DNA of 64,000 nucleotides from Halobaculum magnesiiphilum (GTDB lineage: Archaea; Halobacteriota; Halobacteria; Halobacteriales; Haloferacaceae): assembly GCF_019823105.1 (NCBI RefSeq), contig NZ_CP081958.1, positions 1,178,001-1,242,000 on the forward strand, written 5' to 3'. The notes below the pieces were generated by a model. The model saw only the letters and a program-made list of their open reading frames with translations, was not told where the DNA came from and made no database searches. Position numbers and translations under genes: made by a program. Position 1 is the stretch's first letter. Each line of letters opens with the position of its first letter. Shown in pieces: positions 48,739-50,676 of the stretch.

Positions 48739-49422
48739 ATGGACGGGATCCACGACCTCGGCGGGATGGACTCCTACCGCGACCTCCCGCCGGACCAGCC
48801 CGACGACGCCAGCCCGTTTCACCACGAGTGGGAGGGTGTCGTCCAGTCGCTGTACATCACCGGCCTCGGCTCCGACACGTTCGAACTCGACCGCTTCCGG
48901 TACACGGTGGAGGGCGACGACCCCGAGCGCTACCTGACGGTCCCCTACTACGAGCGCTGGCTGGGCGCCATCGAGACGCTGTTCGTCGAGGCGGGCGTCG
49001 TCGACGCCGACGAACTCCGCGAGCGCGCGGAGGCGTTCGCGGCGGGCGAAGCCGAGGTGCCGGACGAGACCGACCCCGACCGCCTGCCCGCGCTGCTGGA
49101 GGGGACCCGCGAGAAGTACCTGAGCCGCCGCGGCGACGGCGACCCGGCGTTCGCCGTCGGCGACCGCGTCCACGTCCGCAAACGGCACCCCGCGGGACAC
49201 ACACGGTGTCCGCGCTACGTCCGCGGCGCCGAGGGCGAGGTCGTTGCCGACCGCGGCGCCCACGTCTATCCCGACGAGAACGCCCGCGAGGGGGGCGACG
49301 ACGAGCGCTCCGAACAGCTCTACAACGTCCGGTTCGACGCCGAGGAGCTGTGGGGCGAGGGCTGCACCGACGCCGACGGGCTGCACATCGAGCTGTGGGA
49401 ACCGTACCTGACCGAGGCCTGA
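48739..49422 (+). CDS. nthB: Nitrile hydratase beta subunit
   Basis: A 227-residue structural subunit of nitrile hydratase, which hydrates nitriles to amides with the alpha subunit. It starts MDGIHDLGGMDSY, the family hallmark. It has YYERWLGAIETLFVEAG and EGTREKYLSR in the middle and the SH3-like C-terminal domain VHVRKRHPAGHTRCPRYVRG...YNVRFDAEELWGEG...LHIELWEPYL. The length is normal. The alpha-subunit gene follows 72 bases downstream; the beta-alpha order is typical of cobalt-type enzymes. Confidence 0.93.
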   Translation: MDGIHDLGGMDSYRDLPPDQPDDASPFHHEWEGVVQSLYITGLGSDTFELDRFRYTVEGDDPERYLTVPYYERWLGAIETLFVEAGVVDADELRERAEAFAAGEAEVPDETDPDRLPALLEGTREKYLSRRGDGDPAFAVGDRVHVRKRHPAGHTRCPRYVRGAEGEVVADRGAHVYPDENAREGGDDERSEQLYNVRFDAEELWGEGCTDADGLHIELWEPYLTEA

Positions 49423-49494: not shown

Positions 49495-50676
49495 ATGACC
49501 GACGACCGCGACGCGACCGATCCGGACCCGCCGTCCCACCCCGATCCCGAACTTCGAGACGGGATCGACCCACAGTCCAGGGCCCGCGCCCTCCAGTCGC
49601 TGCTGACGGAGCAGGGAATCTTGAGCACCGACGCCGTCGACGAGGTGATCGCGACATACGAGGGCGACGTGGGTCCGATGAACGGCGCCCGGGTCGTCGC
49701 CCGCGCGTGGACCGACCCCGAGTACCGCGAGTGGCTCTTGGAGGACGGCATCGAGGCAGTCGCCGACCTCGACATCTCCGTGAACGACGAGGTGATGGAG
49801 CTCCGAGTGATCGAGAACACCGCGGACACCCACAACGTCGTCGTCTGTACCCTCTGCTCGTGTTACCCGTGGGCCGTGCTGGGCCTGCCGCCGACGTGGT
49901 ACAAGTCGCCGGCGTACCGCTCGCGCGTCGTGGACGAGCCCCGCGCGCTGTTGCGCGAGGAGTTCGACACGGACCTGGACGACTCCGTGGACGTGGAGGT
50001 GTGGGACTCCAACTCCGAGGTGCGCTACATGGTCCTCCCGCAGCGTCCCGAGGGAACCGAGGACATGGACGAGGCCGATCTCGCGGAGCTCGTCTCCCGC
50101 AACGCGATGATCGGCGTCGAACGCCTCGGCGACGGCGGCGCCATCGCCTCCGACGGGGGCGCACGGGCGGCCGACGCCGGCGGCGCGAACGCGGGGCCGG
50201 AGGCGGCGGGCACGGACGCGACCGCCGAGGTCGACACCGCGGGGAAACCGGTCCCGCGCGCCGACGCCGACGGCCCGACGTTCGCGGAGCCGTGGATGGC
50301 GCGGTCGTTCGCGCTCGCGGTCGCGCTCACCGACGAGGACGACCCCGGCCGCACGTGGGACGACTTCCAGTCGGAGTTGGTCGCCGAGTTGGACGCGACC
50401 CCCGGCGTCGAGGACGGGAGCGACGCCGACTACTACGGCGCGTGGCTCGCCGCCCTCGAACGGTTCCTGACCGACCGCGACGTCGTCGACGCCGACGCGT
50501 TCGCGGCCCGCGCGAGCGCCTTCGCCGGCGGCGAGCGCAACGCCCACGAGTTCGTCGAGGGCGACCCGCACGCCCACGCCGACCGGCTTCCCGATGGACA
50601 CGCCGACGGCGCGCATCACCACCACGGGGACGGTGACGATCACGGCCATCAGCACGGGAACGAACACGGGCACTGA
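49495..50676 (+). CDS. nthA: Nitrile hydratase alpha subunit fused to activator domain and His-rich tail
   Basis: A 393-residue fusion. Residues 1-210 form the catalytic alpha subunit with the metal site VC118TLC121SC123; the Thr in CTLCSC marks the cobalt rather than iron type. LPPTWYKSPAYRSRVVDEPR and YMVLPQRPEGTE complete the family pattern. A Gly/Ala-rich linker (about 211-260) leads to a nitrile hydratase accessory (P14K-like) domain (263-348: FAEPWMARSFALAVALTDE, YYGAWLAALERFL). Residues 351-393 contain 13 His (for example HHHHGDGDDHGHQHG), a likely metal store or delivery site. In most organisms the activator is a separate gene. Confidence 0.93.
   Translation: MTDDRDATDPDPPSHPDPELRDGIDPQSRARALQSLLTEQGILSTDAVDEVIATYEGDVGPMNGARVVARAWTDPEYREWLLEDGIEAVADLDISVNDEVMELRVIENTADTHNVVVCTLCSCYPWAVLGLPPTWYKSPAYRSRVVDEPRALLREEFDTDLDDSVDVEVWDSNSEVRYMVLPQRPEGTEDMDEADLAELVSRNAMIGVERLGDGGAIASDGGARAADAGGANAGPEAAGTDATAEVDTAGKPVPRADADGPTFAEPWMARSFALAVALTDEDDPGRTWDDFQSELVAELDATPGVEDGSDADYYGAWLAALERFLTDRDVVDADAFAARASAFAGGERNAHEFVEGDPHAHADRLPDGHADGAHHHHGDGDDHGHQHGNEHGH

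Follow-up and report, generated by a model that had tools for sequence, protein, structure and literature searches.

According to its sequence, an open reading frame (ORF) in the analysed window, a stretch of 64,000 nucleotides from Halobaculum magnesiiphilum (contig NZ_CP081958.1, positions 1,178,001 to 1,242,000), is a natural fusion of the alpha subunit of a cobalt-type nitrile hydratase (Co-NHase) with what appears to be its maturation chaperone, the activator. The two domains are joined by a flexible linker and followed by a histidine-rich tail. The chain probably matures in cis, with a tethered chaperone that is subsequently displaced by the beta subunit. Both domains and their roles are already known; what is new is their natural fusion, which the open-access literature had earlier reported only as an engineered construct.

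Domain architecture and gene order

The ORF begins with ATG and continues uninterrupted for 393 codons (Table 1). Pfam assigns residues 27-208 to NHase_alpha (E 5e-80) and residues 256-346 to NHase_beta_N (E 2.8e-8). According to the NCBIfam models, the chain passes the equivalog for nitrile hydratase subunit alpha, TIGR01323 (269.5 bits, cut-off 249.85), and residues 263-335 of the same chain pass the accessory-protein model TIGR03889 (61.5 bits, cut-off 46). Thiocyanate hydrolase, considered as a better fit for the alpha domain, was ruled out by a TIGR03887 score of 171.2 bits against a cut-off of 291.45. Among solved structures, the alpha domain is nearest to Co-NHase alpha chains (E down to 7e-83), and the cobalt-type metal site CTLCSC is found at residues 118-123 as part of CTLCSCYPW (118-126), with both CTLCSC and YPW invariant across 19 of 19 fused homologues. 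Judging by the curated model, the metal motif, and the beta partner, this domain is a Co-type NHase alpha subunit. As for the activator domain, it keeps the F, P, W, F, W, YY, and W positions that are invariant or nearly invariant among 70 activators. The preliminary description had read the ORF as an alpha-activator fusion with CTLCSC, a linker, an accessory domain, and a terminal segment containing 13 histidines; the former is borne out by both curated models matching one chain, and the latter by direct count.

Purifying selection acts on both folded parts and on the tail: in the Halobaculum group omega equals 0.14 for alpha, 0.25 for the activator domain, and 0.18 for the tail. The linker evolves fast (0.66, ten orthologues) and contains 0-2% histidine. 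A classic activator is a separate protein, with alpha exchanged between complexes; here the activator forms one chain with alpha, and the genome holds no second copy. The fused domain thus falls outside the classic activators, yet it may work like one.

The beta subunit gene, nthB, lies directly upstream of the alpha-activator gene. Its product scores 191.9 bits against TIGR03888 (cut-off 152.2), can be aligned end to end with solved beta chains, and retains the arginine motifs FR and HTRxPRYVRG; conserved beta arginines bind the oxidised cysteines of alpha (PMC7193024). Beta-alpha-activator is a common gene order of Co-NHases (PMC7193024), and the window follows it, except that the last two genes are joined. 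Since the locus is collinear with three relatives across several kilobases, it looks inherited and not recently acquired.

Table 1. Features of the nitrile hydratase locus (window coordinates).
Feature	Position	Strand	Basis
nthB: beta subunit of the NHase (227 aa), pairing with the fused alpha	48739..49422	+	TIGR03888 and alignment
Fused ORF: NHase alpha, linker, activator domain, and His-rich tail, 393 aa	49495..50676	+	
Alpha (catalytic) domain, residues 27-208	49573..50118	+	Pfam, NCBIfam, solved Co-NHase alpha chains, model match
Linker, residues about 212-258, Gly/Ala/Asp-rich, predicted disordered	50128..50268	+	pLDDT, omega, His content
Putative activator (self-subunit-swapping chaperone-like) domain, residues about 257-346	50263..50532	+	TIGR03889, conserved residues, omega, fold
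His-rich C-terminal arm, 13 His in last 44 residues	50542..50673	+	

Structure models

The model of the activator domain reaches a pLDDT of about 94 in its core. When it is compared with structures by VIA-align, the best 26 matches, at Z 6.3-7.7, all belong to NHase beta chains or to a thiocyanate hydrolase subunit (the next match scores 5.5), and Foldseek ranks the same family first, though only at E 0.14. These Z values are modest and would not stand alone, but the NHase beta-N-like fold to which they point agrees with the sequence models. A lack of structural likeness to accessory-type proteins had been named in the preliminary description as evidence against its reading, and an NHase-type fold was found. 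The model of the alpha domain matches NHase alpha chains with Z of 24-26.

The full-length model has a pTM of 0.76, with alpha and activator domains confident, linker and tail low, and about 110 low-confidence residues; pLDDT is under 50 for linker residues 219-241. Its residues 245-355 overlay the beta N-domain, including the N-terminal arm, with an rmsd of about 3.2 over about 103 residues. According to the pTM, which is estimated to be near 0.5 if alpha alone were placed, the two domains are probably placed against each other in the model, which may also echo memorised alpha-beta structures.

Distribution and origins of the fusion

In a survey of 391 haloarchaeal genomes, an activator is present in 32 and alpha in 31, with an activator in every genome that has alpha. 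The fused ORF is the sole activator match in the window genome, where a search for a separate activator found none. Within the window's own family, a profile of the fused proteins was searched over 170 genomes, and 18 of them have alpha: 10 with the Halobaculum-type fusion, 1 with another fusion type, and 7 with separate genes. The Halobaculum-type fusion, matched over both domains, occurs in all 8 Halobaculum genomes that have NHase and in 2 genomes of the sister genus g87. A second family (125 genomes) contributes 6 fused and 5 separate cases. Thus, the comparison of fused and separate genes across Halobacteria that had been proposed earlier reveals both forms. No alpha-activator fusion was found among the bacterial loci retrieved, and no plasmid record covers 80% of the fused query.

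Several loci are of separate interest. On three large Haladaptatus plasmids (NZ_CP085339.1, NZ_CP085329.1, and NZ_CP111041.1), NHase is accompanied by a separate gene annotated as accessory protein. A locus from another genus of the window's family (L029, G347:C60) has the second fusion type and groups with other families, which suggests horizontal transfer or a contaminating contig. Another one (L116, G389:C8), at which an activator remnant has an internal TAG and no alpha gene was found, is probably a decayed NHase locus.

Three switches between the fused and separate states are required on each of the trees (alpha, activator, and beta), and such counts alone cannot separate gain from loss of the fusion. 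A single clade for all fused alphas is rejected (AU p 5e-51), which rules out one origin for all fusions; a clade uniting the Halobaculum group with the singleton fusion L117 (G131:C1) is rejected as well (p 1.7e-7). The two solid fused families also differ in the linker (about 48 versus about 31 residues) and in the tail (present versus absent). Judging by these trees, the fusion has at least two separate origins in haloarchaea. L117 is counted as a doubtful third origin because it comes from a single genome and its adjoining beta gene seems to be split by a frameshift. Repeated gain is the simplest reading, since the fused groups branch from among separate-gene ones and every bacterial outgroup row has separate genes.

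Among the haloarchaeal operons with separate genes that were examined, most have an overlap of 4-8 nt between the end of alpha and the start of the activator; a small indel could thus join the two. As for the high-salt cytoplasm, which had been suggested as the cause of the fusion, the data give it no support: about half of the haloarchaeal tree rows are separate (17 versus 19 fused), and with the two forms similarly numerous, the fusion cannot be accounted for by high salt alone.

Proposed maturation in cis

Known Co-NHases mature by self-subunit swapping, in which an activator-alpha complex takes up cobalt and, after cysteine oxidation, passes the loaded alpha to the apoenzyme by exchange (PMC3511329, PMC7193024). 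Because alpha and activator form one covalent chain in the window, handover of free alpha is impossible, and the classic exchange is hard to reconcile with such a chain. We infer the following steps instead. The activator domain, which is homologous to the N-domain of beta, would fold in cis onto apo-alpha at the future beta surface. The His-rich arm would raise the local cobalt supply, and the activator domain would help cobalt to enter the CTLCSC site and its cysteines to become oxidised. Beta, with two arginines able to clamp the oxidised cysteines, would then displace the activator domain, which would swing off on the roughly 48-residue linker and stay tethered. On the whole, an apoprotein-specific chaperone would act within the chain and then be displaced as a domain, in place of free-alpha exchange.

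Cis loading with tethered displacement is in keeping with the flexible linker and the conserved activator signature. The earlier proposal that fusion in cis may replace exchange is partly supported: cis maturation is likely in view of the sole activator, the covalent link, and the activity of an engineered chain, whereas neither the salt rationale nor the idea that the tail arose with the fusion is upheld. The main doubts concern stoichiometry and possible cleavage of the linker. The fusion provides one activator per alpha, in contrast with the two activators per alpha in known complexes (alpha-e2, PMC3511329).

Alternative readings

Cleavage would make the protein a processed precursor, from which a His-tailed activator is freed for ordinary self-subunit swapping, and the fusion would then only fix 1:1 synthesis. 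The linker is indeed long, disordered, and fast evolving, and the nearest relatives have a separate His-tailed activator; however, the linker alignment contains no conserved cleavage-like motif, and the linkers of the two fused families (about 31 versus 48 residues) are unrelated, which makes a common cutting rule unlikely. We regard processing as unlikely, though it deserves consideration. A sequencing or assembly frameshift, which the preliminary description had itself raised, might also have falsely joined two overlapping genes: the separate genes of relatives overlap by 4-8 nt in different frames, one miscounted base could join them, and the singleton fusion L117 adjoins a split beta gene. 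Yet the same fusion is open in ten Halobaculum-group genomes and in genomes of the second family, in independent assemblies and with new linker sequence. For the window, this explanation is refuted, with a negligible probability left to it, and the fusion is genuine.

Two further readings were considered. Translation could start internally at an in-frame ATG, giving a separate activator in addition to the full chain. The corresponding methionine (residue 268, window 50296-50298) is part of PWM, where other activators mostly have PWQ or PWE and rarely another residue. This ATG is kept in 10 of 10 Halobaculum-type fusions (the window and L010, L014, L016, L023, and L031-L035) and is preceded by GGAG 6 nt upstream in 7 of them. 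In the other 3, however, GGAG is absent; a protein starting at this ATG would also be devoid of the conserved F and PW, though both stay conserved, and several second-family fusions have no in-frame start codon between alpha and activator. An internal start was judged weak on account of the lost GGAG and the missing start codons, and a dual product is very unlikely. It also seems quite improbable that the arm serves for metal storage in general or as a detoxification tag, with the activator domain mainly stabilising alpha in high salt and having no role in cobalt loading. Various His-rich ends do occur on NHases, some of which have an activator that lacks a tail of this kind, but the genome has no other activator, the signature is conserved under purifying selection, and other haloarchaea are served by separate genes. 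Maturation in cis by the tethered chaperone thus remains the preferred reading.

Comparison with known systems

The closest likeness is to an artificial protein. Xia et al. (2016) engineered NHase-(BAP14K) of Pseudomonas putida, a single beta-alpha-P14K chain that is active as a dimer and performs best with the activator at the alpha C-terminus, and for NHase-(BAP14K) and NHase-(BA)P14K fusions they proposed that an apoprotein-specific chaperone mechanism takes the place of self-subunit swapping (PMC4709657). As in the window, a covalent link attaches the activator to the alpha C-terminus; the activity is that of the engineered chain. In contrast, NHase-(BAP14K) has beta fused too and no described His arm, whereas the window fusion is natural, with beta separate and upstream. 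NhlE and NhhG of R. rhodochrous J1 and P14K of P. putida represent the same two protein families with a Co-type site, and R. rhodochrous J1 also has the beta-alpha-activator gene order (PMC3511329). Each of them, however, is a separate protein that leaves its alpha-e2 complex, while the window activator is one chain with alpha.

The natural NHase fusions described in open-access papers are eukaryotic and of the beta-alpha type (PMC2603476, PMC3323583). Those of Monosiga brevicollis and its kin also contain a His-rich stretch, with 17 His in M. brevicollis (PMC2603476, PMC3323583), but this stretch lies between the subunits and no activator is known, unlike the alpha-activator fusion of the window. 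CbiX-L cobaltochelatase resembles the fusion in a His-rich C-terminal extension proposed to serve cobalt storage and delivery; it is a different enzyme of a different pathway, and deletion of its extension leaves cobalt insertion unaffected (PMC7689651). Open-access papers yielded nothing on nitrile hydratase in haloarchaea or Halobaculum, and no natural alpha-activator fusion was found in this literature. The fused proteins appear to be a natural, repeatedly evolved counterpart of the engineered NHase-chaperone chain and offer a test case for the need of self-subunit swapping. They might also serve as starting points for a cobalt NHase that works without a co-expressed activator and may tolerate salt.

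The histidine-rich arm

Histidine makes up 24-33% of the tail in every one of the ten Halobaculum-group orthologues; with its steady His content and purifying selection, the tail is not a chance feature. The motif GDPHAHADxLPxGHADGxxHH is common to the fused protein and unfused relatives, and the nearest separate-gene relatives (L008, L013, L037, and L038) have activators in which this motif carries 8-17 His; the tail is therefore older than the fusion. Several actinobacterial separate activators are His-tailed as well, and the second fused haloarchaeal family has no tail but a His-rich alpha N-terminus in most members. Gain of the tail together with the fusion is thereby ruled out, and a statistical tie of fusion to tail was sought with no such pattern emerging.

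Of 84 loci, with alpha start codons guessed by a simple rule, 36 have a His arm on alpha alone, 32 on the activator alone, and 3 on both, while 13 have none (Fisher p 1.8e-9, with rows not independent). Phylogenetically independent pairs give about 2 opposite placements and 0 same, which is not significant. Since related rows are not independent and independent pairs are too few, the either-end pattern is only suggestive. Many alphas of proteobacteria and other bacteria begin with runs such as HDHDHDHT (L040-L054, L067, L072, L077, L083, L086, and L102). The corresponding activators have no His tail and terminate in TPHGxPVEL, and the reverse is seen in several actinobacteria and most haloarchaea.

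A tentative and rather doubtful generalisation is that Co-NHases tend to have one His-rich cobalt-collecting arm per alpha-activator complex. It would be placed at the alpha N-terminus, as in many proteobacterial rows and in the second fused family of haloarchaea, or at the activator C-terminus, as in Halobaculum, most other haloarchaea, and actinobacteria. Fusion, at least twice, would then make the complex permanent, giving an enzyme with its own maturase that could reload cobalt. Arms at either end would point to a general but unproven rule of cobalt delivery in this industrial enzyme family. As cited in PMC4709657 and PMC4761151, C-terminal flexibility of P14K reportedly matters for its function, which by analogy is consistent with a functional C-terminal arm, though not proof of one. 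According to PMC7193024 (citing Yang 2018), however, the (His)17 stretch of the M. brevicollis-type beta-alpha fusion is not needed for metal incorporation, which cautions against assuming that the arm is essential.

As for cobalt import, a search of the window genome for the CbiM cobalt transporter gave no match. A CbtA-type match and a weak NicO-type match (G000:C3:468361-469053 and G000:C2:243907-244290) may be cobalt importers; both lie at a great distance from the NHase locus.
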